Shown: piece by piece, positions 4,666-52,061 of the stretch
Layout: every line of letters starts with the position of its first letter
How positions within the stretch are numbered: position 1 is the stretch's first letter
DNA from: Ascidia mentula
Taxonomy: Eukaryota > Chordata > Ascidiacea > Phlebobranchia > Ascidiidae
DNA: 64,000 bases
Reading direction: 5' to 3'
NCBI GenBank assembly: GCA_947561715.1
Contig: OX387201.1
Location: 18,428,001 to 18,492,000, forward strand
The notes under the pieces: generated by a model
The model's input: only the letters and a program-made list of their open reading frames with translations
The model's database searches: none
Told to the model about the DNA's origin: nothing
Translations under genes and position numbers: made by a program

Positions 4666-7600
4666 ATGATAAAAACGTCTGACACAAAATGTCAGAATGA
4701 TTCTCAAATCAAAGAACAGAAACCAGGTAAGAAGAGTTTTGATATCCATATCTAAAACACACATTCAACGTTTGTTTGGTTGGCATATTGCAATTATTTC
4801 AAACAACACTTAAATTCAATAAGCTGACAGTAATAAACACAGCTGTTTGGCCAAACTTTTATATTATTTCTTTCACATCATTGCTATGATCAGAAACCAA
4901 AATAGAAACCACTGAAATATGAAATTTCTGTAATTTTCCCTGTATGCTGGTGAATATTATTAGACTAATGTATTCCAAGCTCTTCTGACAGAACTTATTA
5001 TTAAGCTAAGTAACAAAGTTTTAATTTTTCGAGATCCATCACTGCAATTATCAGCACAGGGGGCAACCATATCTGACAGCGTTGTTGGAGTTCATGGTCA
5101 CGTCAACATAACCAAAAAGTACATAACCAAAAAATACTACAGTCAAGGTATGTCAATCCAAGGGTATTGCAAATTTATGCGGGGTAGGACAATTTAAAAA
5201 TATTTTTTTTAAACGGGGTCTTGAGCTTTCTGGTTATGTTAGTGTTTTACTAATGTAGATTAACCAGAAAGTTTATTCAAGTGCCAATTGATATATATAA
5301 TATAAAGTTATTTTGGTTCATGTGCTAAGTTTAATTTGAGCTCATTTTATGCTGACATTATACAACTTACTGAACATTTAGGTACAACAAGCACAAAAGA
5401 AGATGACGAACAAAATGAAGGTAAAATATTGTGATCTATTTTTGCAACAAGAACACAATCATATTGTTAAAATGTCAAAATATTATGGTGCACATAGCCT
5501 ATATGTATGCACACTATGTCATTCGAATTTTGACATAATTTGTAAACCCACATGCTTTGTTTTAAAGAGATGCCAACCCCTACCTTAGAGGTATTGGTGA
5601 TGTGGCAGTAATTTTAACACAGTGAATCACCGCCTACCGTAATATCTCAGCCTATCGAAGCAATGGGTCACAAGGAAAATCAAAGTGGGGTTTCAAACAA
5701 TTTTTCTGGCAATTTAGTTTCCTTGTGCGTTAAAACTGTGCACCTTTATTCAATCAAATGCAGAAATGTAAGGTAAACAGAACAATACACTGCAATAGCG
5801 TAACTATGATTAATGATGAACCTGAATTGGATTGGTTTTGGGTGATGACTTGTGTTTTTTGATTTCAGAAAAAGTGCAGCAAGAAGCCATCGAAATCATT
5901 AAAAGTCGACATAATGTACTAAAGACTGTCATGTCTCTTCCTGGTTTGAGAGAAGATGGAATCCCAGATGTTAATCCAAAACTGGAAAAACTTGACTTTT
6001 ACAAGGGTATTGATCCCAAGAAAGAAGATGAATTTGTGCCATCAACAATGAGGGGCAGTGTAAATCAAGTTTAAGGCGAACCCACAACATTTGAGGAATT
6101 GCTTACTACAATTCATGAAGGTCACCAGTTTATCGCATTTGCAGGAGCACCGGGCGCGGGAAAAACTTCGTTATCCAAGAAACTGCTGAAACACATCAAA
6201 ATGGGGTATTTGATGTTACACCTAACCTTCATGAATATAGACTATGGTGATGGCAAACTTACTCTTCAAGAGCTCCTACTGGACAGGCAGTTTCCTGATA
6301 CCGAGCAAACTGTCCTTGATGCTGCATTCAGATGGATGAAGCAAAACCAAGAAAAGTGCATTTTAGTATTTGATGGTCTGGATCAGGCAACATGGTCACT
6401 GGAAAATGTAAAGCAAATTAATACAGATTACAAAACTCTGTTTACAGTTCAACAGCTTGTTGCGAATCTCTGCAGCAAAACTTTGTTCAGAAAAGCAACA
6501 TTAATCTTTACATCACGTCCACATTCCCTGCTTGCCATTCCTTTAGAACTTCGACCAAAATCTACCATTTATGTCCATGACCTTGCTACAGAAGACATGA
6601 AAATGCTGTTTTATTTCTATGCTGAAGAAAAAGCAAGTGAACTGTTTGAAAAACTTGAAACTGAATCTCCACAAATGCTTAGTTTTTGTCACAATCCATT
6701 GCTTTTACAATTTGTTTTGTATGCATGTTTGTTTGGTAGCCCAGACAGTTTTAACACAATTACCAACCTATTTGATACAGTATTGCAACAATTTAATGTA
6801 TCTAAATATGCAAAGGGCAAGAACATAAACTTTGTTAAAAAAGCCCTTGGCAAAATGGCCTACAATGGAATGACTCGTCGCACTGTTGTGTTTAGCCATG
6901 CAGACCTTTCTGCAGTGGACCTAGAGCACATTAATGTTCAGGATGTGATAATTAAGCTTGTAAAACACTCTTGGTTCTCACATCGTAAAGTTTTCGATGG
7001 TTCCCAAACTTTCTTTTTCTTTTCACATCAAATGTTACAAGAATTTATTTGCGCCTTTTACATTTTCTTTTTTATGCCTGTTAAAGAATTCAACCAAATC
7101 ATTGATGAGGTGGTGAAAGTTCCACACTGGGCCATGGTGCGACGATTTGTCTGTGGCCTTTTGCTTGGACAGAAACGTCGTAAGCATTGCATTAATTATT
7201 TTTACAATATCTTTCTAATTGTTGTTTTTGCAAGTAGTATCGGGAAGTTATCCTGCTGAAGGAAATTTGGAGTCTGGATCTGACGGTGATCTTGCTTGCT
7301 CTGAGACAGATTCCAGGAATCAGGAAAAAGGTATCTTTGCTATGTAAACCTGTAACTGCAACACATATTACCTGGTTTACTATTTGTGCAACGCAAGCTT
7401 TCAATTTGTGTAACATTTGTAAACATTTTTTGAAAACAGTGATTTATCAATCACATTAAGTGAATGTTCACAGGTTACAGAAATTAAACAGGGATGAACA
7501 GTATATTTGCAAAAAAAAAGTTACACATATATTCCACTATTTAGTGACATGCATTGATTTAAAAATTGGAAGCTCCTGCTTTTGCCCCAAAATGAAAACT

Positions 7601-25375: not shown

Positions 25376-28300
25376 TTAAAGATTAGGAAGGACATCATTG
25401 TCATCAATTTTATTCTGACCATTGTCTAAAAAGTCGAGCTCACTCATGGCATCCAGGAGGTATTCTAAGAGCCTAGTTGTGCGATCATCCAAAGAAGCAA
25501 AACCTCCGTCATTAGAGGATTCCAAGCGCATGAGGAGACGTTTTCGTGTTTCAGCGACCGAGGGACTTTCCCCTTGACAAAGTCGGATTTCAGCCTCGAG
25601 TGCCCAACATTACTTCCGCTCCTCCTGGGTCTCTGCACACGCCATGCTCTCCTCCGCAATCCGATCCAAATCCTCATCACCACTCCACTTCTCCCGGAGG
25701 ATTATAGATGCGATTATCTTTGCAAGGGACGCGGCACCATTCCCACGACTTTCGTTGCCTTCCATAAATTTACCAATCTTGAACCCCGTCACTTTGGCAC
25801 GAAGGCTGCACGTGATCATTACGTCATCAATCGTGACGTCACCGACTCTAAAGATTGGATCGGAGTGGAGGAAGTGAACGGCAGATGCGATATCGGCGCA
25901 GAGTCGGAGGTTGGTCAGGGGAGGGAGCCAGAAATCCTTCTTCCTGGTGTATTGGAGGAAGGGGAGGATGTTCATACCGTCCACGTACTCGAACAAAACT
26001 CCGAACTCGTTTCCGTGGCGAGTGTGACCGAGTACGCGGATCACGTAATCGTGATTAGCCAACCGGAATAGTGAGACGCCCTCCGTCAACCTGCAACAAA
26101 CGTATCAGCTCAATTACTGAGATTTGTGAACAACTGTAGATCCATGTTTGAATTTTGCAAGAAAAACATTTATGTGATTAAAACCCAAAACCGTGTCAAT
26201 ATATTTCAAAACTTACGTTTCCATCTGCTGTTCGGTCGATATTCCGTCCTCTATGTTAATGTACTGCACTGTTACATTTCCATGCATGTCATTCCACGCC
26301 TTCTGAACAAGCCTGAAGTTTCCGTTGTCAATAATTTTGTCCATGGAAAATGTCAGTTCGCTCGGAGGAACAAAACAATCCACAGCCTAAAGTAAGGGAT
26401 TTGTTAAACTGATGATAATCTAACTTAATGGTTGTTAGTTGTGTGCAGAATTACTGCATTGACAAAAGCGTTTCTTTCAACATAAAATTGCATCACATGT
26501 TTGTTTTCCAATCATAGATCTCGCATCACATTACAATTGTTGGTATTCAAATACATCAACTAATTGTGTTAAAATAAGCACTGAACACACAAAGTAAAAT
26601 CGACCGCAAAATTCTTTTTTACAGTAAACATTTTTCTACCTTCTTAGAAGCAAGTTTTTGGTCCTCCAATATCTTTAACCTGACTTCTGCTGCTTTGAGT
26701 TCCTGCAAAAAAATAACAGATCATGTAAAATGTTCAATGATAATTTATCATAGCTGGTGTGTTCACTCTGGAATCAAGAGAGACACAAGATGCAGATCTG
26801 AAACTAAACCCAGACATTGACATGATATCCTTTAGCTAATGTTGCAGATACACGATAACTAAAGGAAAAGGTTAAGGTTAACTAAGGGCATGTGACTCTA
26901 CGCCAGGGGTCACCAAACTATGGTCCACAAGGTTAGTCCATGTGGCCCGCCGGGCTTGCATCCCAAATAGCAAATCAGTTTATCCTATCCCACTATAACA
27001 TAAATCTTGTTTCTTTTGTAATATACTGACAGGGATAATAGGCTGAAGAATATATTTAAGGCAAATATGTATATTGTCTTCTGTACAAAGGAATTTTTTA
27101 CATTATAGTTGTTCAAATAATACTACCTAACAGATAACTAACAGATCCCAGTACGAACTGCAATTCATAGAATAAAGAAAGATAAACAAGCAACAAAATT
27201 CATATTATTGGTCTCCATGCTTATTTATTTTATATGCGCAAAAGAGCCATAATATTAAACGAGAGCTGCAGACAGATGTCCAGTATGTTTGGACCTGTAA
27301 GGTCTTATCACAACAGACTGTGGCACAGGGCTAGCTGGTAGACAGGCACACAGATTTTCACTTTGTGGTACCTTTCGGTCAATCTTCGATATGTTGAGTA
27401 CCAAACTAAGTTCCAATGACCATAGACGAACCACATTAAGCGCACTATGGCCAAACAACTGTAGCCCTGTGCCACAGTCGCCAGCTGCACTGATGAGACC
27501 TTACAGGTCGAATCTGTCTGCAGCTCTCATTGAATATTATGGCTCTTTTGCGCATATAAAATAAATAAGCATGGGGACCAATAATATGAATTGTGTGAGC
27601 TGCATACAGATGGCCATTGTTTCAACCTATAAAATATTATTAGTGCAGCTTGGTGTGGACAATCTTACCATGGCAGCACTGATGAGACCTTGTGGGTTGA
27701 AACAGTGGCCAACTGTATGAAGCTCACAAAAAATAATATATTGAAAATGGAATAAGAAACCTAAACCATTTTGCTGTAATTACCTGATTAAGTTCAAACA
27801 TCTCGAGGTATTTTTCTTTGAACGGGTCAGACTCTCTCTCAACATTTCACCATTTTCTTTCGATAACTTCTTGCTTAACTTCAGATGTTGCTAAGCTTGA
27901 CTCACTGCACGGCCATGTAAGGCTTTAAAGTTCTGGATGTTCTCTAATTCCAAAATCTGAAACAATGTGCATTTGAAATGTTATTACAAATCAACTTATG
28001 CTTGTCTTTGTAAGAAAATGTAATTGAATCACTTGATGTTATGTTTGTGCAGAATGATCTACAGTTTTTGCAAACGATTGTCTTTTACAACATTTCAGTG
28101 TCATGCACCCATGTTGTTTAATCAATTACAAAATCATTGTACATTTTATCAATAAATACTTCACGACCAAATGATAAATACTATGTTTTATACAGTAAGC
28201 ATCATTATGATGCAAACAAATCTTTGCTTTGAGGTGTGAATATGTAAATGATGACAGGACAAAAAACAAATATTTTACTAGTTTCAAGTTTTCTTACCCC

Positions 28301-31300
28301 GTTATCCATAAGTTCATGGTATTTCGCTGCTAACTTCTTTTCATTTTCAAAGTAGGTGGCATCGTGTTTCCTCTGAAACAAAAGTTTTATTTAACACAAA
28401 AAAAATATTTGCTATGCAAGAAAATTTAATGCATAAACCCACATGCAATTTCAATTATCCCAATTGCTAACTGCGATATTAGGATATGTTTGTGCAGTAA
28501 AAATCAAAACAATTACTTTGAAATAATTTTTGAAGAAAGATTTTTCCTCCTCTGCCTTTTCAATAAACTGACTTTCCATTTGTTTCCTCAACGTTGCATT
28601 TGCCCAAAGTTGCGACGAAGAGAGAATTCTTTTTCCAGACTTCAAACATTTCTTATGGCATTCTTCAAATGGTTCTTCCATTGCAAAGAGAGCTTTCAAA
28701 ATCAAAACACGTTCAATGGAAACAGCAAAATACAAATGTCTGAAATGAATAAATATTATCCTTGTTGTCCGGCTGATAGTCACAACAAATTGACCAACGA
28801 AGAACGTTTTTTTTCTGTATTTCCATTTAATCAGCTTAATATAGAGTTCAAAAAGTTGCCACAAGTTTCCACAAATATAGTAAATTGATTGATTCAACAT
28901 TACAAGGAAACTCACCATCATGCTTTCCCTGTAGCTGCTAACAGCATTCGATTGTAAGCAGTGCATTACATTCTGAAACAAACCATATATTAGAATACAA
29001 TATTTTTGTACAGTGGTGCACATAAAATTCAGAATAACTCCAGGCAATCATGATTACCTCTTGGTTTTTTGCACTTTCAATCTCACTGATAATTACATCT
29101 CTTTTTTCTTGCAAAGTCAAATTGAAACTCAGCATTTGTTGATCTGACAATGATTGAACGACTCTTTTTTAACTACTAATTTTGTTCGAAGACTTTCGCC
29201 ATGTTAAAACCAGTATCCATTAATATAACAAAAGCAAAGAATAGAATTTTTCACCCCAAACCACTTGAGAAAACTTTGGGTCCAAAGCTGTCTCAAGATG
29301 TTGTTTTGCTTCATCATTCGCCAAAGATTGTTGCTGAAAAACATCATCCTTGCATGTGCATTCATGTTCCTGCAAAAAGCGTTAAGTTTTAATGTCATCA
29401 GATAGCATTTAATTGTTAACAAACATACAACAATCACCATCTTGAAATAATACCAATCACCAAAGCATTTACCTTCATTTTACTCAGATAAATTTCCAAA
29501 GCCTTTGAAAAAATTGCTTCCATTTCACCCGACTGAAAACAAATAATGACGCAGTATGAAGAACAATAAATTTATTCCAAACAATTATTTTTAAGTAGAA
29601 GTGTGAATAAAATATGCAGTTTCAAGAAAAAGGATATGATGTGGATGAGGTGCATATTTTCAATAACTTGAAAGATAGTAGGAAAATATACGTAAAAAAG
29701 GTATAACGGAGCAATGAACAAGTCAAGCAAAAATCACCTCTTTTCCAAAATACATGACTTTGTTAATATCAGTTTATCATGTTAAACTAGGGTGTGTCAC
29801 ACATGTGTCTCACGATGTCATCAATATTTTTAAGATGTCATCAAACACTAATAAACATTAAGGCTGCAGCCTTTTAGTCTTCCACATACATTTTGGGTTG
29901 AAATATAAAGCCATAAATTGTGAAGGTTTGTGCCTATTTTATGCTTTGTTCTAAGGCTGCAGTTTATGAAGGTTAAGTTCAGGGTGGCAAAGCTATTTAG
30001 TCTGAAGAGTTGTGACTGTATTACCGTAATCTATGGTAATATTTAATCAATTTTAGGGAACACAGAGTTAAACAAGTTATTTATTTTTAAAGTTTTGTCC
30101 AATCCCTATAACTTACTGTTTTGCTTCCATCAACTGGTAGTGTGTCATAAGTGCTTTGCGTTTGCTTTAAAACCTTTCAAAATAAAAAAGTTAATAAAAT
30201 AATTAGCACATCTTCACAATCTTGAACACCATCATGATGTAACAAAGATTTCATTCCTTAACAAACATTAACAAACTTTTCACATAAATGTTAGTAAAAG
30301 AAAAATCCATAAACGAGGCATTTTTCTCACTCCAAGCAGTAATTTCTTACACAGCTCAGTTTCATGTCATTCCGTTGTAGCTGTTTGTAGTTGTTTGTAA
30401 CACGCTTTAGTGCAACCTAAATAAAATATTAGGTGACAATCCAAACTTTTTGGATGTAAAAATTACACTACAATCAAATAAAAGTTTATTGGTTACTTAC
30501 CAGCTTTCTTTTAAAGTCATCCTCAAACATTATCTTGTAACTGTTTGTGTATGTTCCCAATGCACTGATACCACTTTGATACCAACCCAGGTGTCTGAAG
30601 TCTTGTATTTTTTCAAATCTTCGTACTTTTCGAAGATAAAATCCTGAGCATTTGAGGTAATATTTTCATATGATGTGTCAACTGACATGATACCCTGAAG
30701 CATTAGTTATGATGTAAGACCACATACAATAATGCACAGTAAAAGAGAAAATACTGCACAAGTTTTCCAACATTTTTTTTCAAATTTTAGGCAAACATTT
30801 AGAGGCCAATCTTACAATGACCATTATGAAATGTCTTAAATACAGGTAAAAGAATAACTTTACACACACACTTCTGTTATGCTTTTGATATAGTCTTCAA
30901 TTTGAAGCTCAATGGCACGAAAATACTCATGTCGGGCTGTGTCCTGCGTCAAAACCAGTTGTAAATGTAATTAAGTGACCAAAAGTTGAAATAGGATCAG
31001 TTATGAGGTAGAATATTCATAATGTCAGAAATGGGAAAAAATCAAAACAGGATCCAAACAGAAGTGAAAGAGGTAAGTTGCGTGATTAAGACAGAAACAT
31101 TAACCGATCATGCAGTAAATGCATTAAACATTGCACAACCAAACCAAAGAATCTATGTGTCAAGAAATGTGCAATTGATATAGAGCATCAAATACTAAAA
31201 CACAACAAGTGAAAACCAACCTCCAAATAAAGCCTTCCTAGATCATAGTTTCCGTCGTTCATGGATTTCATGTAACGCTCGATCCGTCTAAAAGTTTGTT

Positions 31301-37380: not shown

Positions 37381-40300
37381 ATGAAAAGAACGTCTGACAC
37401 AAAATGTCAGAATGATTCTCAAATCAAAAAACAGAAACCAGGTAAGAAGAGTTTTGATATCCATATCTAAAACACATATTCAACGTTGTTTGGTTGGCAT
37501 ATTGCAATTATTTCAAACAACACTTAAATTCAATAAGCTGGCAGTAATAAACACAGCTGTTTGGCCAAACTTTTATATTATTTCTTTCACATCATTGCTA
37601 TGATCAGAAACCAAAATAGAAACCACTGAAATATGAAATTTCTGTAATTTTCCCTGTATGCTGGTGAATATTATTGGACTAATGAATTCCAAGCTCTTCT
37701 GGCAGAACTTATTATTAAGATAAGTAATGAAGTTTCAATTTTTCGAGGTCCATCACTGCAATTATCAGCACCAGGGGCAATCATATCTGACAGCTTTGTT
37801 GGAGTTCAAGGTGATGTCAACATAACCAAAAAATACTACAGTACTCCAGGTATGTCAATCCAAGGGTATTGCAAATTATTGCAGGTTAAGACAATTTGAA
37901 AATATTTGTTTTTAAACAGAGTCTTGTCTTGAGCTTTCTGGTTATGTTAGTTTTTTACTTATGTAGATTAACCAGAAAATTTATTCAAGTGCCAATTAAT
38001 ATATATAATATAAAGTTATATCGATTCATGCGCAAAGTTTTATTTGAGGTGATTTTATGCTGACATTATTCAACTTACTGAACATTTAGGTACACCAAGC
38101 ACAAAAGAAGATGATGAACAAAATGAAGGTAAAATATTTTGTAATCTATTTCTACAACAAGAACACAATCATATTTTTAAAATGTCAAAATATTATGGTG
38201 TTCATAGCCTATATGTTTGCACGCTATGTCATTAGAATTTTAACATAATTTGTAAACCGGCATGCTTTGTTTAAAATGATGCCAACCCCTACCTTAGAGG
38301 TATTGGTGATGTGACAGTAATTTTGACACAGTGAATCACTGTCTACCGTAATATCTCAGCCTATCGAGCGATAGATCACAAGGAAAATCAAAGTTGGGTT
38401 TTGAAAATTTTTCCCGACAATTTAGTTTATTTGTTCGTTATAACTGTGCACCTTCATTCAATCAAATCCAGAATTGTAATGTATACAGAACAATACACTG
38501 CAATAGCGTAACTGTGATTAATGATGAACCTGAATTGCAATGGTTTTGGGAGGAATTTCTGATGACTTGTGTTTTTTGATTTCAGAAAGAGTGCAGCAAG
38601 AAGCCATCGAAATCATTAACAGTCGACATAATGTATTAAAGACTGTCATGTCTCTTCCTGGTTTGAGAGAAGATGGAATCCCAGATGTTAATCCAAAACT
38701 GGAAAAACTTGACTTTTACAAGGGTATTGATCCCAAGAAAGAAGAGGAATTTGTGCCATCAACAATGAGGGACATTGTAAATAAAGTTAAAGGTGAACCC
38801 ACAACATTTGAGGGATTGCTTACTACAATTCATGAAGGTCACCAGTTTATCGCAATTGCGGGTCCGCCGGGCGCTGGAAAAACTTCGTTATCCAAGAAAC
38901 TGCTGAAACACATCAAAAAGGGGTATTTGATGTTACACCTAAACTTCATGAATATAGACTATGGTGATGAAAAACTTACACTTCAAGAGCTCCTACTGGA
39001 CAAGCAGTTTCCTGATACCAAGCAAACTGTCCTTGATGCTGCATTCACATGGATGAAGCAAAACCAAGAAAAGTGCATTTTAGTATTTGATGGACTGGAT
39101 CAGGCAACATGGTCATTGGAAAATGTAAAGCAAATTAACACAGATTACAAATCTCAGTATATGGTTGAACAGCTTGTTGCAAGTCTCTGCAGCAAAACTC
39201 TGTTCAGTAAAGCAACATTAATCTTTACATCACGTCCACATTCCCTGCTTGCCATTCCTATGGGACTTCGTCCAAAATCTACCATTTATGTCCACGACCT
39301 TGCTACAGAAGACATGAAAAAGCTGTTTTACTTCTATGCTGAAGAAAAAGCAAGTGAACTTTTCAAAAAACTTAAAACTGAATCTCCACAAATGCTTAGT
39401 TTGTGTCACAATCCATTGCTTTTACAATTTGTCTTGTATGCCTGTTTGTTTGGTGACAAAGACAGTTTTAACACAATTACCAACTTATTCCATACAGTAT
39501 TGCAACAATTTAATGTATCCGAATATGCAAAGGGCAAGAGCATAAACTTTGTTAAAAAAGCCCTTGGCAAAATGGCCTACAATGGAATGACTCGCCGCAC
39601 TGTTGTGTTTAGCCATGCAGACCTTTCTGCAGTGGGCCTAGAGCATATTAATGTTCAGGATGTGATAATTAAGCTTGTAAAACACTCTTGGTTCTCACAT
39701 CGTAAAGTTTTCGATGGTTCCCAAACTTTTTTTTTCTTTTCACATCAAATGTTACAAGAATTTATTTGCGCCTTTTACATTTCCTTTTTTATGCTTGTTA
39801 AAGAATTCAACCAAATCATTAATGAGGTGGTGAAAGTTCCACACTGGGCCATGGTGCGGCGATTTGTATGTGGCCTTTTGCTTGGACAGAAACGTCGTAA
39901 GCATTGCATTAATTATTTTTACAATATTTTTCTAATTTTCCTAATTGTTGTTTTGCAAGTAGTATCGGGAAGTTATCCTGCTGAAGGAAATTTGGAGTCT
40001 GGATGTGACGGTGATCTTGCTTGCTCTGAGACAGATTCCATGATCCTGGAAAAAGGTATCTTTGCTATGTAAACCTGCAACTGCAACATATATTACCTGG
40101 TTTACTATTTGTGCAACACAAGCTTTCTATTTGTGTAACATTTGTAAACATTTTTTGAAAACATTGATTTATCAATCACATTAAGTGAATGTTCACAGGT
40201 TACAGAAATTAAACAGGGATGAACAGTATATTTGCAAAAAAAAGTTACACATATATTCCACTATTTAGTGACATGCATTGATTTGAAAATTGGAAGCTCC

Positions 40301-42557
40301 TGCTTTTGCCCCAAAATCAAAACTTTGTCAACATAACTCCTGTATCCTGGGTCAAATTGTGTTAAAATTTTTTTCGTCGCCACAGGTTTGCATATGAAAC
40401 ACATGTCATGTTTTAAAGTTTCAGGTAATTTAAAGTTTTCAGGTTCTTAGCCATGTTAAAACATTGCATCCAAAAATTTCAATGTTAAGTGACCAAGCAT
40501 AGCTGTACCAATGGTGTATGTGTTCAATTTTACTGCACTACGGTTAGACATGCAGAGATTGTTTGTTTTACCTCAGGAGTCCCAACTATAGGGCCGCGGA
40601 CTAGTACCGGTGCATTTTCAACCTGTCCTCCCATCTTGTCGGCTGGGATTTTGTGTGGTACACGCCTTACACAAACGCGAAAGACCTTATATAAATGTCG
40701 TTTGTTTTTGGGTTATTTCATTGTTTCGTGTTTTTTTTATTATTTTTCCCTTAGGAGAGAAGCATCGACGCAGCCGCGTTGGCTACCGCACGAGGGCGCA
40801 CGAGGTCCTCGTCACGCGACGGGCGACGTCGTCACAGAAGCCGCTGCCCCGCAAGTCTACGTCACAGAAGCAGAACGCCGGAATCGCGACGACGTCGAAG
40901 CGACAGACACGACCGAAGAAGCCGAAGAAGCGAGAGGGACCCAACCACCAACAGCACCGTAAGCTTCAGTGAATGCTGATCAAACTGGTTTTCGTGATAA
41001 CGCTTTTTTCAGTCATTGTAATCTTGTAACAGCGTCACACATTTTGTTTGCATTTAATAAACAGCCTTCGGCCATGACAATGATTATTTAACCACCAACT
41101 ATAAATACAGGTTGGGCACTTATGCCCATCCCCAGTAAACTATAACATGGTATTGTCTTTGCCAAGGCACTCGTTACTGATAGTACTGCGTTAGACATGT
41201 AACATGCGTATACTTGATTCATTTATTGGTGGCCTCTGCTTTACTGCATTAAATAACCTTTAGCTCCTACAGATTATATCTGTGTTTGCGCAAAACATAC
41301 GAGTAGAAATAATTCGTCCAACCAAATACATGTCAACAGTTTTATTGCAAATGTTGTTGTTTCTTGTTTTCCAGACAAACGTGCGAAATTATTGGATGCG
41401 CTTTCAAGATATCTCAAATCTCAACCCGGGTCTAAATACGATCTACTGAGTGAGTAAATGATATGAATGCCAACAGTTTAATGTGTGTTTGTAAACACAA
41501 CATTTATTTGCGTAACAATGGGTGGGTTTGTTACGTCACACAGTCATTGTTTGAACCGAACACTCAATGCAGTTTTTTTTAGTTGTGATTAAATGTTGTG
41601 GAGGAAGGACGCGTTTATTTCTGTCGTGTAATTTTTATATTTTCTGATAATTTAAACGTTTTATATTGGATTGATTTGTTGGTTCTTGTGTTGATTAAAT
41701 CCGACTTAAACGTGGGGAATTCTGTGCAAGAATAAAGTAAGTTTTAGTTTAAGGGATTTTATTAAAACTGGAAACCAGACATCTGCTTTTTTAATAAACT
41801 TGCTTCTGTTTTGTTTCAGATTTATTTCTGGATTTGAAAGAAATCCAAAAATGCCACCAAGAAAAAATCGCCGGATTTTGTCCTCGGGAGTTGAATTTTT
41901 ACGGAACCCGACTTCACTCAATCGTTCAGGTTTTGGCGGAATTTTTATCAAAAGTTACAAGAAATGATTTGAGGCTGGTGCTGGGGTATTGCGACCTGAA
42001 CTCCGAAGATTTAACGATTATTTGTGAAGCAATAAAAAGAATGAAACCAAAGGTTTGTTTGTGTTTTTATTTATTTTGTAACCAAGATTCTGTTTCAAAT
42101 CCCTGACATTTTTTGCAAAAGTTTATTTATTTAAAGAAAAAAAACACGGAATCGTTTTAGTTTTGGGATAAAATGTTGCTTCTTCCTGGTTCGAAATGTG
42201 TAGAAATATTTCCAACAAACAATGTTTTTATTTTAAATAGTTGAGAATTCTCTACCTGGGTGGAAACGAGTTTCGCGGAAAAGACGACGCGAAAAAAATT
42301 TGTGAGATTTTACCGAAGATTGGGGGGTGGTTGAGTCTGTATGAGTGCAAAATGGATCCGGAGTCGGTTAAGATGGTGAAGGCAGCACGAGCTAATATGG
42401 AAAACCCTGTGAGGATTTAATTTATATTTGTATAAAAACATTTATTTGTGAAATTTCATGAAATAAAACTTTTTGTGACTTTTTTCAGCCGAGAGTTGAT
42501 GGTTTGGATGAACAGTTCCCCCCCTCATCCGATCCAGATTCCAGTGATTCGGATTGA
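37381..42557 (+). CDS. NACHT-LRR (NLR) protein, right copy, intact
   Basis: Exons 37381-37441, 37769-37849, 38090-38128, 38586-39896, 39963-40055, 41375-41449, 41820-42052, 42241-42408 and 42489-42557 join in phase to 709 codons plus stop. The N-terminal 60 residues come from three tiny exons; the second encodes SDSFVGVQGDVNITKKYY, a short beta-prone motif. The NACHT domain starts near residue 105: Walker A AIAGPPGAGKTS, Walker B CILVFDGLDQ (Gln where many have Glu), sensor IFTSRP. The helical region after it ends at QEFICAFYISFF and RRFVCGLLLGQ. The C-terminal exons encode at least two leucine-rich repeats (LYLGGNEF, LSLYECKMDPES), and the protein ends in an acidic DPDSSDSD tail. No death-fold domain is seen. 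NLRs are cytosolic ATPases that assemble on sensing danger; the ligand is unknown. ATG 37381 was chosen because it opens the conserved first exon with a GT donor in both copies. The mini-intron 39897-39962 could use either of two AG sites 3 bases apart. Confidence 0.9.
40683..41097 (+). other. Inserted 3' exon of an arginine/serine-rich gene
   Basis: About 415 bases present in the intron of the right NLR copy but absent from the left one. It has a pyrimidine-rich acceptor (TTTTTCCCTTAG ending 40754), a GC-rich exon whose frame reads TARGRTRSSSRDGRRRHRSR and then many RS/RR dipeptides to a TGA at 40977-40979, and AATAAA near 41057. The first codons after the acceptor read KHRRSR in a neighbouring frame, so the RS tract seems to shift frame once early on. 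Because the intron acceptor is included, it is a genomic fragment and not a processed copy. RS tracts are typical of splicing factors; which gene it came from is not known. Confidence 0.6.
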
Positions 42558-43092: not shown

Positions 43093-44127
43093 TGTCGCCG
43101 CACAACACATGTATATACTAAAAAAGGCCCAAAGCGTATAACTATATTATGACCGAGAGTTAAAACCAAAGTCATTGTAATCACGCGTTCAACGCATGTC
43201 CAAGTTGTGATGTCCAATAAAACGACATGGGAAAAAAGAAGAACTCATTTCCGGTTTAGGTCAATTCCTGACCGGACAATTTAATAGGAAAAACCTGCCG
43301 AGCTGGTGGCAGGTGAAAAAATTGTAGCCGGTAGAAGCAGCCACATTATAGATGTGTTATAAACCATGTAATTTGGGCAATAAAGTCATATAGGTAACTT
43401 AGGCAACCAAACTAACTATGTAAATCAAGTTAAAATAATTACAGACATTTCTTTGGCAAATAATAAATAAAGGTTGATTTAAACACAAGTACTTCTTTCG
43501 CAAATGATAAATAAAGCTAAAATAAACATAACTACTTTTAGTTATTCTGAAAACAAAGTCTACCTATACATAAATAACCCATTAGGGCACTTAGTTAATT
43601 AAGCTATAAAAATAACTGACGTAATCGACCAAATCGGTCAACTTCAAGTTGCATTCAAGTTGCGCAACAACTCCAAATAAGGTATCAATACGTGTGGCCA
43701 ACCGCAGACTATATAAGCAGAGCAACTAGCGCCTGCCAAATCAGTGTGTTTTAACTGTTGCTGTGTAAGGGTCTAGGTTGTTGGTTCTGCTTTAGTACAC
43801 TGTATAGGAGCCCCAATTGTACTGTACTGTACTTGGATTTATTCGTTGGATTATATCAATAAATGGATTTATGAACAACTTTGGACTGGCTTGAAGCTTG
43901 GTGGATGTATGTGTTTAGTCGGGAGTTAGACTATCTAGAAGACGCACAGACTTGTGTAAAGGAGTTCTTTAACTCCAACAGTAAACCTTGAGATAGAGAA
44001 GGCAAGTTGCCTACGAGGCCGAGTTGCCAACGAGACTCAGTCGGATCCCTTGGGGTGCGAGGCCGAGACGCAGTCGTACCCCACGGTCACCCAGCGGGGA
44101 CATACCCCGACAACTGGTAAACCGACA
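43093..44127 (+). repeat. LTR 1
   Basis: Opens TGTCGCCG and is taken to close in ACCGACA at 44127, because a primer-binding-like TGGTGCCCAGAAG begins two bases later (44130). A TATA box (CTATATAAGC, from 43709) and AATAAA (43858-43863) mark U3 and R. The right border is inferred, since every LTR here is followed by internal sequence. Confidence 0.75.
43710..43716 (+). promoter_or_regulatory. TATA box of the LTR
   Basis: TATATAA in CTATATAAGCAGAGC, followed about 150 bases later by AATAAA. The same site recurs in LTRs 2-4. Confidence 0.65.
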
Positions 44128-44344
44128 ACTGGTGCCCAGAAGTTTGGCGAGTTCACTGCACAAGTCAGTGTCATCAAAACTTGTCCGGATATTATTCCGA
44201 CCATTCCCGGATTCAGCAGCCAAATTTCCCGCCGAACGGGTTAATTCACACCCGTTCCAGTTCCAGCAGCCTACCCAGCACAGCAACAGCAATCAGTCAA
44301 CTGCAGCAGCCATTAACAAACAAGCAGACAACTTTCGGCAACTG

Positions 44345-44520
44345 TTCGGATTATTCGGATTTATACGTATTATACGTATCATACGGATTATACGGATTTA
44401 TACGGATTATACGGATTTATACGGATTATACGGATTATACGGATTATACGGATTATACGGATTTATACGGATTATACGGATTTATACGGAATTATACGGA
44501 TTTATACTGATTACGGATTA
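44345..44520 (+). repeat. TACGGATTA-type short tandem repeat in the LTR element leader
   Basis: About 18 copies of 9- to 10-base units TACGGATTA or TACGGATTTA. The same tract stands in every unit (near 49453, 54561 and 59669). Confidence 0.85.
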
Positions 44521-44734
44521 TACCCGCAACTGGTCTGCCCTCATCCTTTTCAAAGAAAAGAATACCCTTATCAGGCGCCAAACGGAATTACCTTACTATT
44601 GGATTTACTCAGCTTGTTCCTAACAACATCCCATTCGGAGAAAGAACACTGTAACTACAGGAAAGTGCCATCAGGAAGAACAGCTTATTCAACAAACATT
44701 TATTGCATCAAAACGCTAATATACAATCATCACG

Positions 44735-46024
44735 TTGCCGCACGTGGTAAAGTCCGCAACTTTGGCTGAGAAAGGCAATAAAAAACGTAAAACTGTTCCA
44801 CCTGGTAACTCAATTGCATCTAGAACTAGATATCAAACTCAAATAAAAGCAAGTATGGAAACCCCGGCCGACACCTTGTGGGCTGAAAATCATGCAAACA
44901 GACCACCACCTGATAATCCCACAGTTTCAGGTCGCACTTCCCCCAGACCAAACACAAATGATGTAGAAAGTTTGGGCAGAAACCCATTTAGCATACCTCC
45001 CTCCCAAGATAAGCATGCTGACATAAGGCCATCCAACACCGACCAACATGTTTTTACAAACGCACCTTTTCCACGTCAAACGTTTAACTTCACAGCTGGA
45101 ATTAAAATTCCAAAACTATGGTCGCAACACAACTACCGCTCTTATTTTCTGTACCTCGACCGATACTTTCAAACGTATAATATAATGGACGACAGAGACA
45201 AATTTGCTCAACTTTTGTCAGGATTTTCACAAGAACAATGTGCCAGATATGAGCACGTTATTGCACAGGCAGCTATTTCACTTACCCCTTATACAACTCT
45301 GAAAAATTCTTTAATTCGCTTGTCCACTGGAACAAGCAGCACAGCTTGGCTCTCAAAGCTAAAATCTTTGAGGTTAGATTCAGGTGAACTTTCTTCAACT
45401 TTCATGGGACGATTATGCGCAGTGTGCGCAAAAGACCCAATCTATGACGAGACAACACGCCAAATTGTGGTGGACAATTTTCTTGATAAAATGCCAAGGG
45501 ACGTCAGCAATGTACTTCGCGCCCAACACCCAGACATATCTCTAGAAGAGCTGGGGTTGCTGGCTGACAGAATCATTACGCCAACTGATTATAGTGTACC
45601 GGAAGATCAGACACAAAACAATGAAATGCAGAGAATTACCGGTCAGATACAAGAACTGTTTACTGAGTTAAAGTCTGATATAAGCAATCAAAGACAACAA
45701 AGTCGCAGAAATTTTGTTGAACAAAACAAAAGTAACAATATGACCAACCGACGAAAGTTTTCATACCACCCGACAAGACAAGAATATGCACAACAGTGTA
45801 GAAATCAAAACGGTTATTACGAGCCACAACAAGGAAATCACAGACAGCCCTTCCGACAATACCAAAGGCAAGGGCAAATAAATACTCAGTCTACCCAGCA
45901 CCAACACCAGTCAACAGATGGCTTGTGTTTTTATCATGCACGCTTTGGTGACAAGGCGTTAAAATGCAACAAACCTTGCAGTTACAATCATGTCAATATA
46001 ATATCAACATCTGTAGGCCTATGA
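44735..46024 (+). CDS. Gag-like frame, unit 1 (LTR element)
   Basis: 430 codons from an upstream TTG; the first ATG in frame is at 44855. The middle part (IPKLWSQHNYRSYFLYLDRY, then DKFAQLLSGFS and YTTLKNSLIRLSTG) follows the gag pattern of invertebrate Ty3/gypsy elements. Near the end CFYHARFGDKALKCNKPC is the C-x2-H-x9-C-x3-C knuckle often written CxYHxxFGxxAxxCxxPC in that group. A Gln-rich basic linker precedes it. Gag would form the particle shell that packages element RNA. Confidence 0.8.
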   Translation: MPHVVKSATLAEKGNKKRKTVPPGNSIASRTRYQTQIKASMETPADTLWAENHANRPPPDNPTVSGRTSPRPNTNDVESLGRNPFSIPPSQDKHADIRPSNTDQHVFTNAPFPRQTFNFTAGIKIPKLWSQHNYRSYFLYLDRYFQTYNIMDDRDKFAQLLSGFSQEQCARYEHVIAQAAISLTPYTTLKNSLIRLSTGTSSTAWLSKLKSLRLDSGELSSTFMGRLCAVCAKDPIYDETTRQIVVDNFLDKMPRDVSNVLRAQHPDISLEELGLLADRIITPTDYSVPEDQTQNNEMQRITGQIQELFTELKSDISNQRQQSRRNFVEQNKSNNMTNRRKFSYHPTRQEYAQQCRNQNGYYEPQQGNHRQPFRQYQRQGQINTQSTQHQHQSTDGLCFYHARFGDKALKCNKPCSYNHVNIISTSVGL

Positions 46025-46953
46025 ACCGACCGAATCAGATTCCAAAAGCACCAAATCGACGGCAATATTCCGAGTCGGCATCAAACTCTTTGCCGCATGT
46101 CTACGACAAAAATAATAAAATGTCATTTCTGTTGGACACTGGATCATCCAAAAATTTCCTCCCAGTTACACAGCACCACACCCAAGAAGTTGAATCAGAC
46201 TTTATTGGACCAGGCGGAGAGCCCATACCCTACTTTGGACAAACTGTACTCAACATTGACATTGGCTTCGGCAACATGCCTGTAACTTTCTCTGTTTGCA
46301 AAGTTAAAAGACCTGTTCTCGGATACTACTTCCTTCAAAAGCACGACTTGTTTATCAGACCTGATAAAAATCTGTTGCAGTCATCACAAAACAAGAAATC
46401 AGTTCAATTTAACATGAAAGAAAGCTCGAAGGAAATAAATACAGTCCTTGTAAAAGTTCCGCACCGAGGCAGTCATGCAAATAACACTCTTATAAAAACA
46501 ACTGCAAAGGACAAGCCTAGTATTGTTGTGGCAAACACACTTGGCTCAACAGACGTGCCCCAACATCAACAAAAAACTAAACTTCACTCTTCTTCAACTG
46601 CAGATAAATTGCCTCAGTACAAAACTAAAATGGCCAGGTACCCAAGCGTTAGAAAACGCCAAAGTAGCAATGCAACAATTACAGGAGGAAACAATCCTCG
46701 CTTACCAAAGCAGTCGGTTAAACTGGAACAAAAACCGTATTCCCTTTCTGGTGATGGAAGTAGGAAATATTTTTCCAAATTCAACTGCGAACAGTTCCGT
46801 ATGCATCAATCAGAAGCGACCATCATGCAAAATGACCGCCATGAAATTTCAAGGTATGACTACTCCAGTCTTGGTGAAGTCATCCATAAAGTCACAAGAC
46901 TTTTACAATTTACAAATATAGTGAGCCGTCTGTGTTTACTGAAGGCCGCATAA
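45964..46953 (+). CDS. Protease-like frame, unit 1 (LTR element)
   Basis: Overlaps the end of the gag-like frame. MSFLLDTGSSKNFLP holds the D-T-G active site of a retropepsin, and RPVLGYYFLQKHDLFI matches the usual hydrophobic-ILG-x2-FL-x2-H end of the domain. About 200 codons follow with no recognised domain. No polymerase follows. Gypsy-type elements commonly make protease as a gag fusion by frameshift or read-through. Confidence 0.8.
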   Translation: MQQTLQLQSCQYNINICRPMNRPNQIPKAPNRRQYSESASNSLPHVYDKNNKMSFLLDTGSSKNFLPVTQHHTQEVESDFIGPGGEPIPYFGQTVLNIDIGFGNMPVTFSVCKVKRPVLGYYFLQKHDLFIRPDKNLLQSSQNKKSVQFNMKESSKEINTVLVKVPHRGSHANNTLIKTTAKDKPSIVVANTLGSTDVPQHQQKTKLHSSSTADKLPQYKTKMARYPSVRKRQSSNATITGGNNPRLPKQSVKLEQKPYSLSGDGSRKYFSKFNCEQFRMHQSEATIMQNDRHEISRYDYSSLGEVIHKVTRLLQFTNIVSRLCLLKAA

Positions 46954-48188
46954 AATTTCCAACACCCGGCATCTGCACAAATGTTGATAAATCAACAAAG
47001 CACACTTTTTACATAGATTCGTTACATTTTTTATGTTTGACCCACCAAAACGTTATATGTGTTTATATATGTATAAGAACCGAATCAATGCTACATATAA
47101 TTTTACTCCGCCAATGTAATCTCATGCAACGTGCATCGCCTTTCCTTCTGCATCTCTCAAATCAGGATATAAATTCCTGAGGCAGCTATCTCATGCGACG
47201 CGCATCCTTCAACACGTAAACATCAGCAGTGATCAACCCCACAAAACCTTATAATAACTGAATGGGGTCACTCGATCAGCGACTGCGACAGCCGACATAT
47301 TCATGCAATTGTGCTGTTCAAATAAATATAAGACATGAGATCCCTACGTTTGGAATCTATTCGCGACAAGACTCCGTTCCACTGAACCTGATTTGGGCCC
47401 AGTCGGGTGACGTGGAATGGATCTTCTTGCAATAAATAACGTAGATCTTCACCTTAGTTCGCGATTTGTATTTACCTCGAGGAATGCGAATTGCGTTTTT
47501 ATCTCCAACATATAAGGCATTTTACAGCCATTTACAGCCTTGTTCATGAGGACACTTCTGTCCAATATCTCACTTTTTCTGATATCAAATGGCACCAACG
47601 TGGAAGTAGTTGGTATCCTATGTAATCACTCTTCCACAGTTCAAAATTTTGAAGCAATTTTTCAAGCCATTTCACGATACAAACAACGAATGCGCGTCTA
47701 CCTACTTACACCTTGCTTGCAATTTCAATGGTGTAAAGCCTAATAACGCTATAAACAGTTTCGCAAAGCGACAAAGCGAAATAATAAAAGAGATATATAG
47801 CCTAGTCCACATAGTGGCAACTATTAATAATCAGACGCTTACTTAACATCAATTATACGCTTGTTACTGTGTTAATAACACCAGCTATCGCCTATGTATC
47901 AATGTAAAATTTGTGTATATGTATTCTCGTTGCTCTCCATAATGTACTAAAATAATCTGTGGATCCACAATTATATCTTTGTAAATGTCTCCAAGTCTAA
48001 ACAATTGTGTCCCGTGATTGCTTTGTTATATGTAAATATGTTACACTCGAACAACGGAAATTTGTATAAATGTATATATACTATTTTGGTGTACTATAAA
48101 ATATATTTGTGAGTGTACTTTGTACGTCGCTCTCTTCAACAGAACCAACAACTTGCGTTCATATATGGACCGCAAGTACCAGACAAGC
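46954..48188 (+). other. Non-coding 3' part of the internal region, unit 1
   Basis: 1.2 kb where a complete Ty3/gypsy element would carry reverse transcriptase and integrase. Only short frames without motifs occur. Recurs unchanged in the other units. Confidence 0.7.
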
Positions 48189-48200
48189 GGGGGGGTATTA

Positions 48201-49235
48201 TGTCGCCGCACAACACATGTATATACTAAAAAAGGCCCAAAGCGTATAACTATATTATGACCGAGAGTTAAAACCAAAGTCATTGTAATCACGCGTTCAA
48301 CGCATGTCCAAGTTGTGATATCCAATAAAACGACATGGGAAAAAAGAAGAACTCATTTCCGGTTTAGGTCAATTCCTGACCGGACAATTTAATAGGAAAA
48401 ACCTGCCGAGCTGGTGGCAGGTGAAAAAATTGTAGCCGGTAGAAGCAGCCACATTATAGATGTGTTATAAACCATGTAATTTAGGCAATAAAGTCATATA
48501 GGTAACTTAGGCAACCAAACTAACTATGTAAATCAAGTTAAAATAATTACAGACATTTCTTTGGCAAATAATAAATAAAGGTTGATTTAAACACAAGTAC
48601 TTCTTTCGCAAATGATAAATAAAGCTAAAATAAACATAACTACTTTTAGTTATTCTGAAAACAAAGTCTACCTATACATAAATAACCCATTAGGGCACTT
48701 AGTTAATTAAGCTATAAAAATAACTGACGTAATCGACCAAATCGGTCAACTTCAAGTTGCATTCAAGTTGCGCAACAACTCCAAATAAGGTATCAATACG
48801 TGTGGCCAACCGCAGACTATATAAGCAGAGCAACTAGCGCCTGCCAAATCAGTGTGTTTTAACTGTTGCTGTGTAAGGGTCTAGGTTGTTGGTTCTGCTT
48901 TAGTACACTGTATAGGAGCCCCAATTGTACTGTACTGTACTTGGATTTATTCGTTGGATTATATCAATAAATGGATTTATGAACAACTTTGGACTGGCTT
49001 GAAGCTTGGTGGATGTATGTGTTTAGTCGGTAGTTAGACTATCTAGAAGACGCACAGACTTGTGTAAAGGAGTTCTTTAACTCCAACAGTAAACCTTGAG
49101 ATAGAGAAGGCAAGTTGCCTACGAGGCCGAGTTGCCAACGAGACTCAGTCGGATCCCTTGGGGTGCGAGGCCGAGACGCAGTCGTACCCCACGGTCACCC
49201 AGCGGGGACATACCCCGACAACTGGTAAACCGACA
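48201..49235 (+). repeat. LTR 2
   Basis: Almost identical to LTR 1 with a few substitutions, and preceded by the G-run that serves as candidate polypurine tract. Confidence 0.8.
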
Positions 49236-49842
49236 ACTGGTGCCCAGAAGTTTGGCGAGTTCACTGCACAAGTCAGTGTCATCAAAACTTGTCCGGATAT
49301 TATTCCGACCATTCCCGGATTCAGCAGCCAAATTTCCCGCCGAACGGGTTAATTCACACCCGTTCCAGTTCCAGCAGCCTACCCAGCACAGCAACAGCAA
49401 TCAGTCAACTGCAGCAGCCATTAACAAACAAGCAGACAACTTTCGGCAACTGTTCGGATTATTCGGATTTATACGTATTATACGTATCATACGGATTATA
49501 CGGATTTATACGGATTATACGGATTTATACGGATTATACGGATTATACGGATTATACGGATTATACGGATTTATACGGATTATACGGATTTATACGGAAT
49601 TATACGGATTTATACTGATTACGGATTATACCCGCAACTGGTCTGCCCTCATCCTTTTCAAAGAAAAGAATACCCTTATCAGGCGCCAAACGGAATTACC
49701 TTACTATTGGATTTACTCAGCTTGTTCCTAACAACATCCCATTCGGAGAAAGAACACTGTAACTACAGGAAAGTGCCATCAGGAAGAACAGCTTATTCAA
49801 CAAACATTTATTGCATCAAAACGCTAATATACAATCATCACG

Positions 49843-51132
49843 TTGCCGCACGTGGTAAAGTCCGCAACTTTGGCTGAGAAAGGCAATAAAAAACGTAAAA
49901 CTGTTCCACCTGGTAACTCAATTGCATCTAGAACTAGATATCAAACTCAAATAAAAGCAAGTATGGAAACCCCGGCCGACACCTTGTGGGCTGAAAATCA
50001 TGCAAACAGACCACCACCTGATAATCCCACAGTTTCAGGTCGCACTTCCCCCAGACCAAACACAAATGATGTAGAAAGTTTGGGCAGAAACCCATTTAGC
50101 ATACCTCCCTCCCAAGATAAGCATGCTGACATAAGGCCATCCAACACCGACCAACATGTTTTTACAAACGCACCTTTTCCACGTCAAACGTTTAACTTCA
50201 CAGCTGGAATTAAAATTCCAAAACTATGGTCGCAACACAACTACCGCTCTTATTTTCTGTACCTCGACCGATACTTTCAAACGTATAATATAATGGACGA
50301 CAGAGACAAATTTGCTCAACTTTTGTCAGGATTTTCACAAGAACAATGTGCCAGATATGAGCACGTTATTGCACAGGCAGCTATTTCACTTACCCCTTAT
50401 ACAACTCTGAAAAATTCTTTAATTCGCTTGTCCACTGGAACAAGCAGCACAGCTTGGCTCTCAAAGCTAAAATCTTTGAGGTTAGATTCAGGTGAACTTT
50501 CTTCAACTTTCATGGGACGATTATGCGCAGTGTGCGCAAAAGACCCAATCTATGACGAGACAACACGCCAAATTGTGGTGGACAATTTTCTTGATAAAAT
50601 GCCAAGGGACGTCAGCAATGTACTTCGCGCCCAACACCCAGACATATCTCTAGAAGAGCTGGGGTTGCTGGCTGACAGAATCATTACGCCAACTGATTAT
50701 AGTGTACCGGAAGATCAGACACAAAACAATGAAATGCAGAGAATTACCGGTCAGATACAAGAACTGTTTACTGAGTTAAAGTCTGATATAAGCAATCAAA
50801 GACAACAAAGTCGCAGAAATTTTGTTGAACAAAACAAAAGTAACAATATGACCAACCGACGAAAGTTTTCATACCACCCGACAAGACAAGAATATGCACA
50901 ACAGTGTAGAAATCAAAACGGTTATTACGAGCCACAACAAGGAAATCACAGACAGCCCTTCCGACAATACCAAAGGCAAGGGCAAATAAATACTCAGTCT
51001 ACCCAGCACCAACACCAGTCAACAGATGGCTTGTGTTTTTATCATGCACGCTTTGGTGACAAGGCGTTAAAATGCAACAAACCTTGCAGTTACAATCAGG
51101 TCAATATAATATCAACATCTGTAGGCCTATGA
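49843..51132 (+). CDS. Gag-like frame, unit 2 (LTR element)
   Basis: Near-identical to the unit 1 gag-like frame; same matrix/capsid-like core and CxYHxxFG knuckle. Confidence 0.8.
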   Translation: MPHVVKSATLAEKGNKKRKTVPPGNSIASRTRYQTQIKASMETPADTLWAENHANRPPPDNPTVSGRTSPRPNTNDVESLGRNPFSIPPSQDKHADIRPSNTDQHVFTNAPFPRQTFNFTAGIKIPKLWSQHNYRSYFLYLDRYFQTYNIMDDRDKFAQLLSGFSQEQCARYEHVIAQAAISLTPYTTLKNSLIRLSTGTSSTAWLSKLKSLRLDSGELSSTFMGRLCAVCAKDPIYDETTRQIVVDNFLDKMPRDVSNVLRAQHPDISLEELGLLADRIITPTDYSVPEDQTQNNEMQRITGQIQELFTELKSDISNQRQQSRRNFVEQNKSNNMTNRRKFSYHPTRQEYAQQCRNQNGYYEPQQGNHRQPFRQYQRQGQINTQSTQHQHQSTDGLCFYHARFGDKALKCNKPCSYNQVNIISTSVGL

Positions 51133-52061
51133 ACCGACCGAATCAGATTCCAAAAGCACCAAATCGACGGCAATATTCCGAGTCGGCATCAAACTCTTTG
51201 CCGCATGTCTACGACAAAAATAATAAAATGTCATTTCTGTTGGACACTGGATCATCCAAAAATTTCCTCCCAGTTACACAGCACCACACCCAAGAAGTTG
51301 AATCAGACTTTATTGGACCAGGCGGAGAGCCCATACCCTACTTTGGACAAACTGTACTCAACATTGACATTGGCTTCGGCAACATGCCTGTAACTTTCTC
51401 TGTTTGCAAAGTTAAAAGACCTGTTCTCGGATACTACTTCCTTCAAAAGCACGACTTGTTTATCAGACCTGATAAAAATCTGTTGCAGTCATCACAAAAC
51501 AAGAAATCAGTTCAATTTAACATGAAAGAAAGCTCGAAGGAAATAAATACAGTCCTTGTAAAAGTTCCGCACCGAGGCAGTCATGCAAATAACACTCTTA
51601 TAAAAACAACTGCAAAGGACAAGCCTAGTATTGTTGTGGCAAACACACTTGGCTCAACAGACGTGCCCCAACATCAACAAAAAACTAAACTTCACTCTTC
51701 TTCAACTGCAGATAAATTGCCTCAGTACAAAACTAAAATGGCCAGGTACCCAAGCGTTAGAAAACGCCAAAGTAGCAATGCAACAATTACAGGAGGAAAC
51801 AATCCTCGCTTACCAAAGCAGTCGGTTAAACTGGAACAAAAACCGTATTCCCTTTCTGGTGATGGAAGTAGAAAATATTTTTCCAAATTCAACTGCGAAC
51901 AGTTCCGTATGCATCAATCAGAAGCGACCATCATGCAAAATGACCGCCATGAAATTTCAAGGTATGACTACTCCAGTCTTGGTGAAGTCATCCATAAAGT
52001 CACAAGACTTTTACAATTTACAAATATAGTGAGCCGTCTGTGTTTACTGAAGGCCGCATAA
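51072..52061 (+). CDS. Protease-like frame, unit 2 (LTR element)
   Basis: Near-identical to that of unit 1, with D-T-G and the VLGYYFL element. Confidence 0.8.
   Translation: MQQTLQLQSGQYNINICRPMNRPNQIPKAPNRRQYSESASNSLPHVYDKNNKMSFLLDTGSSKNFLPVTQHHTQEVESDFIGPGGEPIPYFGQTVLNIDIGFGNMPVTFSVCKVKRPVLGYYFLQKHDLFIRPDKNLLQSSQNKKSVQFNMKESSKEINTVLVKVPHRGSHANNTLIKTTAKDKPSIVVANTLGSTDVPQHQQKTKLHSSSTADKLPQYKTKMARYPSVRKRQSSNATITGGNNPRLPKQSVKLEQKPYSLSGDGSRKYFSKFNCEQFRMHQSEATIMQNDRHEISRYDYSSLGEVIHKVTRLLQFTNIVSRLCLLKAA

Follow-up and report, generated by a model that had tools for sequence, protein, structure and literature searches.

NLR amyloid signalosomes are known from fungi (NWD2/HET-S, PNT1/HELLP (PP) and sigma) and from bacteria, where BASS1-10 occur with Bell-domain effectors, and the RHIM of animals has a tetrad of the form phi-Q-phi-G. 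The FIIND of NLRP1 and CARD8 consists of ZU5-UPA, and the cleavage site of PIDD has the form HFS. In fungi and bacteria, a motif ahead of the nucleotide-binding domain of the NLR together with the motif on an effector is described as marking amyloid templating from the one to the other in excerpts of PMC7889193 and PMC12881547. Among the known motif families, an excerpt of PMC12261475 gives the RHIM as the one of animals. According to the portion consulted of PMC12119088, no RIPK1 homologue with both the RHIM tetrad and a death domain was found in tunicates. For PIDD, NLRP1 and CARD8, ZU5-UPA is presented as a switch that works by autoproteolysis (passages in PMC3334886 and PMC11760013; also PMC8195603); CARD8 is cut after F, and Nlrp1b between residues 983 and 984 (S984) (excerpt of PMC3334886). 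Combinations of NACHT with ZU5 are recorded in early animals including cnidarians (passages in PMC8260672 and PMC12909245). Ascidian NLRs are stated, in an excerpt of PMC11508797, to be without an N-terminal domain.

The window analysed here, a stretch of 64,000 nucleotides (C69:18428001-18492000), holds two NLR copies with a short motif at the front. As in the NLR amyloid signalosomes, this short beta-prone motif is N-terminal to the nucleotide-binding domain, the same motif is found on separate partner proteins (C-terminal in repeat proteins, by gene models from DNA), and it is repeated in some partners. The motif sequence is different, however, the partner carries ZU5 instead of HeLo or Bell, and the genes are not adjacent, with NLR arrays at C69:16.8-21.3 Mb and partners at C69:4.7-4.8 Mb, on C70 and on C2, which counts against the parallel. 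Like the RHIM (RIPK1, RIPK3, ZBP1, TRIF and the cryptic fly RHIMs), it is a short candidate homotypic motif in animal innate immunity, but its VQG lacks a hydrophobic residue before G, and it is borne by an NLR. With NLRP1, CARD8 and PIDD the locus shares the pairing of an NLR-type sensor with a ZU5 module, here by a candidate link via the motif; the C70 motif sits behind ZU5, where NLRP1 and CARD8 have their CARD, and the F-S pair (KHFSK) behind ZU5 in a gene at C69:4.775 Mb would be a bond of the type that is cleaved in CARD8 and Nlrp1b. In contrast to those proteins, sensor and ZU5 belong to different genes with only the motif in common, and no CARD or death domain was seen. Sponges, ctenophores and cnidarians have NACHT-ZU5 proteins in which the link is covalent, whereas here it would act in trans via the motif. 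The locus suggests that the link between NLR and ZU5, found in cis in NLRP1 and in the NACHT-ZU5 proteins of early animals, also has a trans form.

Our best explanation, to which we give about an even chance, is that a homotypic motif forms the signalling end of these NLRs and recruits motif-bearing ZU5 and repeat partners, most likely by cross-beta pairing. Conservation of the exon, sharing of the motif and the architecture of the partner genes are observed at the level of DNA in this genome. The motif exon provides a specific candidate, defined by its sequence, for the missing NLR signalling end, with candidate partners named, and the questions of signalling end and partner become testable with short peptides. 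Among the matches listed from the open-licence PMC literature, no title or opening of an abstract reported an amyloid-type motif in tunicate NLRs or a motif common to NLRs and ZU5 proteins.

Gene models and exon joins were taken from splice signals read in the DNA alone; by this reading, the four front exons of the right NLR copy all join in phase 1. The features are as follows.

37381..37441, + strand: right copy exon 1, MKRTSDTKCQNDSQIKKQKP plus 1 base, with a likely start codon (DNA reading)
37769..37849, + strand: right copy exon 2, the motif exon, 81 nt, phase 1/1 (exon read in 29 of 29 loci)
38090..38128, + strand: right copy exon 3, acidic linker GTPSTKEDDEQNE (DNA reading)
38586..39896, + strand: right copy exon 4, NACHT and winged helix (Pfam NACHT 2.1e-16, NOD2_WH 3.1e-6)
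41820..42410, + strand: right copy downstream LRR-like exons, approximate span (mostly by eye)
4666..4726, + strand: left copy exon 1, MIKTSDTKCQNDSQIKEQKP (DNA reading and tblastn)
5055..5147, + strand: left copy motif exon, 93 nt, phase 1 (DNA reading)
6072..6074, + strand: in-frame TAA within the left copy NACHT exon (DNA reading)

The initial annotation had placed the motif on a phase-1 exon of its own in both copies, with four extra residues in the left one, and the exons at 37769-37849 and 5055-5147 agree with this. The right motif exon is bounded by ...ttatcAG and GTatgt and reads (G|)CA-PGAIISDSFVGVQGDVNITKKYYSTP-(G|); in the left one, a 12-nt internal duplication (KKYITKKYY) accounts for the additional residues, and the left copy otherwise follows the same exon layout. 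The left copy is probably a pseudogene or truncated, given the in-frame TAA in its NACHT exon. Two joined downstream exons of the right copy gave a sub-threshold LRR_1 match (Pfam, E 0.03). At about 40665-41105 of the window the right copy is, by eye, some 440 bases longer than the left and contains an arginine-rich open frame.

Nothing above the Pfam cut-off was found N-terminal to NACHT/NOD2_WH in the right copy; with E up to 10, the sole match in the 96 N-terminal residues was Med21 (E 0.068, under the cut-off). The earlier statement that the NLR N-terminus has no death fold holds for the Pfam matches listed, which include no death, kinase or caspase fold.

We searched a genome of 196 Mb in 79 contigs. 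A single six-frame search returned 35 matches, six of which were dropped as they matched the linker exon only, and three protein searches, this one included, together gave 53 distinct motif places. The motif exon had been expected to recur in other NLR genes, and it does: 48 of these places are NLR-type, a label that rests on position and motif, with NACHT checked at 29 of them (27 fetched loci, which were selected by exon 2 itself, and the two in the window). Forty-four of the 48 lie in two arrays on the contig of the window, 23 at C69:16.8-19.1 Mb and 21 at C69:19.9-21.3 Mb, and the others are single places at C69:15.07, C71:8.67, C71:19.09 and C73:5.38 Mb. A NACHT match follows the motif exon within about 3.1 kb at 27 of the 29 places; of the remaining two, L030 has no NACHT match downstream and L031 only a stub of 33 residues. 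NACHT is broken in L018, L019 and the left window copy, and L009, 58 kb away from the right copy, has a NACHT 99.8% identical to it. A script that sought the pattern AG|CA ... G|GT found such a reading of the motif exon at all 29 places. The motif consensus is AQGAxIxxSIVGVQGDVNITxNYY; A1 drew on 17 distinct exon peptides.

Between clades, the aligned bases of exon 2 agree at 79-85% in the five pairs compared, against 46-60% in the 200-nt flanks and 42-49% in a shuffled-flank control, while exon and flanks are both about 90% identical in the one within-clade pair tested. A homologue of exon 1 was found in 10 of the 27 fetched loci and in the left copy (tblastn, E <= 2e-7). By tblastn, exons 1 and 3 were not found in four loci read at C69:19.9-20.2 Mb, and the clade whose motif exon begins with ANI or ANM gave no match to exon 1 and, for exon 3, E 0.3-0.6 at best; because of the selection of loci by exon 2, the comparison of exon 2 with exons 1 and 3 is biased towards exon 2. 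Codon tests used 16 representatives of the 29 loci (15 for NACHT, where L018 is broken). Pooled pN/pS among the NLR paralogues is 0.64 for exon 2 (bootstrap 0.42-1.18) and 0.42 for NACHT, so constraint on the whole exon does not exceed that on NACHT. The idea that purifying selection acts more strongly on exon 2 was rejected accordingly, pN/pS being not lower, and this comparison counts against our best explanation.

The consensus query also matched places outside NLR genes, and the suggestion that the proteome would hold a partner with a matching motif was confirmed at the C-terminus of repeat proteins and in exons ahead of and behind ZU5. Motif-repeat genes lie at C69:4.817-4.832 Mb and C70:6.727 Mb. 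The last exon of the gene at L040 ends ...VTNAQGATIKGSICGVMGNVTVTNLKQ-stop, and the gene after it starts MSSAQTHFKGCKISGNATVNTAGGDININQ... At L044 on C70, seven exons, joined in phase 1 by reading, encode 219 residues that are nearly all short motifs, arranged as A, B, linker, A', B', short exon, C. Motif A, rich in glycine and asparagine, differs from the NLR motif, to which B and C are similar. The C motif, AQGA(T/I)I.GSI.GVMGNVT..., is followed by a stop in all three genes read (L040, L043, L044). Start exons of repeat genes occur at six places with E below 1e-6, and C-motif exons at seven, in the genome search. Pfam assigned no family to the repeat protein.

A second motif of the repeat proteins, F-x-x-C-x-I-x-G-N-x-x-x-N-T-A-x-x-D-I-N-I-N, alternates with the NLR-like motif. 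It gave 11 matches in this genome, all at places of the motif-repeat family, and by eye we take it to resemble the glycine/asparagine-rich tags of bacterial NLR-associated proteins. It was located by eye as follows.

L044, about 150-250 and about 905-1000, + strand: second repeat motif
L040, about 1145-1045, - strand: second repeat motif

The C-motif exons at C69:4.7235 and 4.7755 Mb continue past the motif, and a ZU5 exon follows about 575 bp later, so that the motif is N-terminal to ZU5 in these fusions. At C69:4.780 Mb, the part after the motif alone is matched (E 0.015), ahead of a ZU5 match. Pfam ZU5 scored 21.7 bits in the gene at C69:4.7755 Mb (cut-off 21) and 26.4-26.9 bits at three other ZU5 matches of the C69:4.7-Mb cluster, where the motif was not checked. 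Directly behind ZU5 the C69:4.7755 gene reads TKHFSK, with its F-S pair; Pfam gave no UPA match behind ZU5 and no HeLo-type domain on the part of the C69 partner that was read. A model of the ZU5 exon (pLDDT 56, with about 14 intron residues included) brought no ZU5 among the best 50 of 688 matches, and a PDB sequence search with the ZU5-side sequence returned only ZO-1 (E 0.085), in a stretch that is presumably its ZU5 domain.

Of 73 genome-wide matches to ZU5 (PF00791) at E up to 1, the + strand of C70:2.09-2.64 Mb carries 23, each of them partial and weak (E 0.012-0.51). A weak match of the consensus query at C70:2483007 (E 0.21) falls within this array; used as a query itself, it returned 37 matches, including ten further + strand copies in the array, and also recovered NLR exons (best E 0.0023). 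For eight of the 11 array copies a same-strand ZU5 match ends 1.4-2.3 kb upstream, nine begin 369-390 bp past the start of a link exon of the ZU5 family, and every one has at least one of the two upstream, whereas stretches equally close behind a ZU5 match make up 0.2% of C70. From the 36 matches of the link-exon search, the 20 of the first link exon on the C70 + strand were used, and 16 of these follow a ZU5 match within 2.5 kb. The nine best of the 20 are all accompanied by the motif, and none was found with the other eleven. Behind 15 of the 23 C70 ZU5 matches no motif was found within 2.6 kb, several of them keeping the link exon; these 15 may carry other motif types, which would be akin to the diversity of fungal motifs. 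The weakness of all 23 matches and the 15 without a motif count against our best explanation. Because the array copies are one tandem family, they count as one evolutionary association, and the fusion at C69:4.7 Mb is a second, different association of motif and ZU5.

Elsewhere on C70, the motif lies 2.0 kb behind a - strand ZU5 match at 0.94 Mb. A further motif match, at C70:5484882-5484959 on the - strand (E 0.0015), has no ZU5 or NLR match near it. On C2, the copies at 2.61 and 2.69 Mb have their upstream ZU5 matches 9.8 and 38 kb away and are therefore placed only in the same region as ZU5. L048 (C70) and L049 (C2) both contain the core SIVGVQGDV and have a 5' intron in phase 1, like the NLR exon. 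L042, L048 and L049 each have an in-frame stop 12-15 residues past the core; a possible splice donor stands ahead of that stop, however, and the C-terminal place of the C70 motif hangs on this unproven donor.

The recurrence of the motif in this genome is far beyond chance. A profile of 15 of the 16 NLR representatives (L018 out; L030, L031 and the left copy also left aside) scores the eight trimmed partner exons at 18.0-30.8 bits, compared with a maximum of 12.6 bits both in 16,000 shuffles of partner exons and in 2.07 million control residues (six-frame translation of the window and shuffles). Untrimmed, L045 falls to 15.8 bits, which counts against our best explanation, and the other untrimmed partners reach 18.5 or more (L043 was scored trimmed only). 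We estimate the chance level for a whole-genome six-frame search at about 20 bits, so six of the eight partners stand alone and L042 (18.5) and L045 (18.0) need context. The scores of L040, L043 and L042 are not independent, because these exons were found by an NLR-derived query; the five found with partner queries (L044, L045, L046, L048, L049) score 18.0-27.7 bits. For the B motifs inside the repeat proteins the scores are 5.3-12.6 bits, which likewise counts against it.

In the reverse direction, a profile of the eight partner exons only, which leaves out the inner B motifs and the A motifs (below 0), ranks the two motif exons of the window first, at 25.2 and 23.8 bits, with the next at 13.7. 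A partner within the window itself was rejected, as this profile finds only the two NLR exons above control level there, and tblastn of the ZU5 protein against the window gave E 5.8 and worse.

The string SIVGVQGDV is exact in five of the 16 NLR representatives and in two of the three C70/C2 copies read. Between NLR cores and the three C70/C2 cores, pS is 0.57 and pN 0.09 (9 codons; pairs not independent), and this synonymous excess speaks for conservation at the protein level and not for a recent DNA copy. NLR cores are more diverged from the repeat and C69 cores (pS 0.78, pN 0.40), which again counts against our best explanation.

In the mechanism that we propose, ligand sensing would let NACHT oligomerise and so crowd the N-terminal motifs, and the crowded motifs would then recruit partners with the same motif by like-with-like beta pairing, most likely as cross-beta (amyloid-type) templating. 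The partners would be ZU5-domain proteins, with the motif behind ZU5 in one array and ahead of it in another, and the small motif-repeat proteins might serve as scaffold, amplifier or brake. We infer physical homotypic recruitment of ZU5 proteins to NLRs through the shared motif, drawing on the architecture of fungal and bacterial NLRs, the ZU5-UPA switch and the NACHT-ZU5 proteins; less firmly, the assembly would be amyloid and the ZU5 protein its output. Pairing of beta strands is likely for the V-x-V-x-G-x-V-x-I core and amyloid is possible, an amyloid state of the motif being plausible but unproven. On an aggregation scale (AGGRESCAN values), all six motif peptides given have a hot spot, as do two of three published aggregating peptides and not the one published non-aggregating peptide; this is weak evidence on amyloid propensity. 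A bolder version, in which the dozens of receptors of one animal NLR family seed motif-tagged ZU5 effectors and repeat amplifiers by non-RHIM amyloid templating in trans, is tentative and falls clearly short of an even chance. If it is true, the job that NLRP1 does in a single chain would be divided here between a receptor and a ZU5 partner, with a prion-like tag to bring the two parts together again.

Motif sharing would be expected just as much if NLRs, ZU5 proteins and repeat proteins each bound one folded third protein through a docking peptide, with no homotypic assembly, and a nine-residue core in disordered-looking sequence suits a short linear motif equally. However, serial related motifs in a small protein, ending with an NLR-like one, and a tag before NACHT with a matching tag on a separate protein both fit homotypic amyloid pairs better, and we consider docking, the main rival, less likely. 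The symmetric phase-1 exon raises another prospect, namely that a mobile exon spread by exon shuffling or gene conversion and was kept as a neutral linker only; the likeness of core DNA between NLR and C70 genes and the not very low whole-exon pN/pS among NLRs would agree with such a relic. Yet the exon has been retained between clades although its flanking introns are near the shuffled level, and the differences from C70/C2 in those 9 codons are mostly synonymous, which makes a mere relic quite improbable. Finally, the motif might be an intramolecular strand that packs on its own NACHT or LRR in an autoinhibitory or structural role, as its place ahead of NACHT in 27 of the 29 loci would allow, but the same motif also occurs in genes where no NACHT was seen, and we hold this to be highly improbable.

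Of the earlier interpretation, a signalling end with matching partners is supported, and kinship with the RHIM is not. No RHIM was among the Pfam matches listed with E up to 10 (for the long protein, the best 25 of 34), genome-wide the four Pfam RHIM matches are below the cut-off with none at the motif, and the NLR profile gives the RHIM-like BASS3 peptide of bacteria 1.2 bits. Pfam NACHT_sigma, HET-S and Ses_B were likewise not among the matches listed with E up to 10 for the NLR motif and the partners. Death domains gave 29 matches genome-wide at E up to 1, none of them in C70:2.09-2.64 or C69:4.7-4.8 Mb.

Two other features of the window were observed. Between the NLR copies, on the - strand at 25610-29500, lies a gene with long helical exons whose C-terminal domain is kinase-like (Pfam PK_Tyr_Ser-Thr 1.7e-9 on the joined exons, 4e-7 on the last ORF alone). 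The positions of HRD and DFG read, by eye, RVG and TGF, and the sequence suggests that it is likely a pseudokinase; its N-terminal part resembles guanylate-binding proteins by eye, without Pfam support. On the + strand at 43997-62275, four near-identical units of 5,108 bp stand head to tail, with ORF starts at 43997, 49105, 54213 and 59321. By eye, they contain gag-like and aspartyl-protease-like (LLDTGSSKNF) frames, along with an IIRIIRI/YGLYGLY low-complexity repeat, and three of the four units have the long frame in two parts (434 + 333 aa), whereas it is uninterrupted (743 aa) in the fourth.
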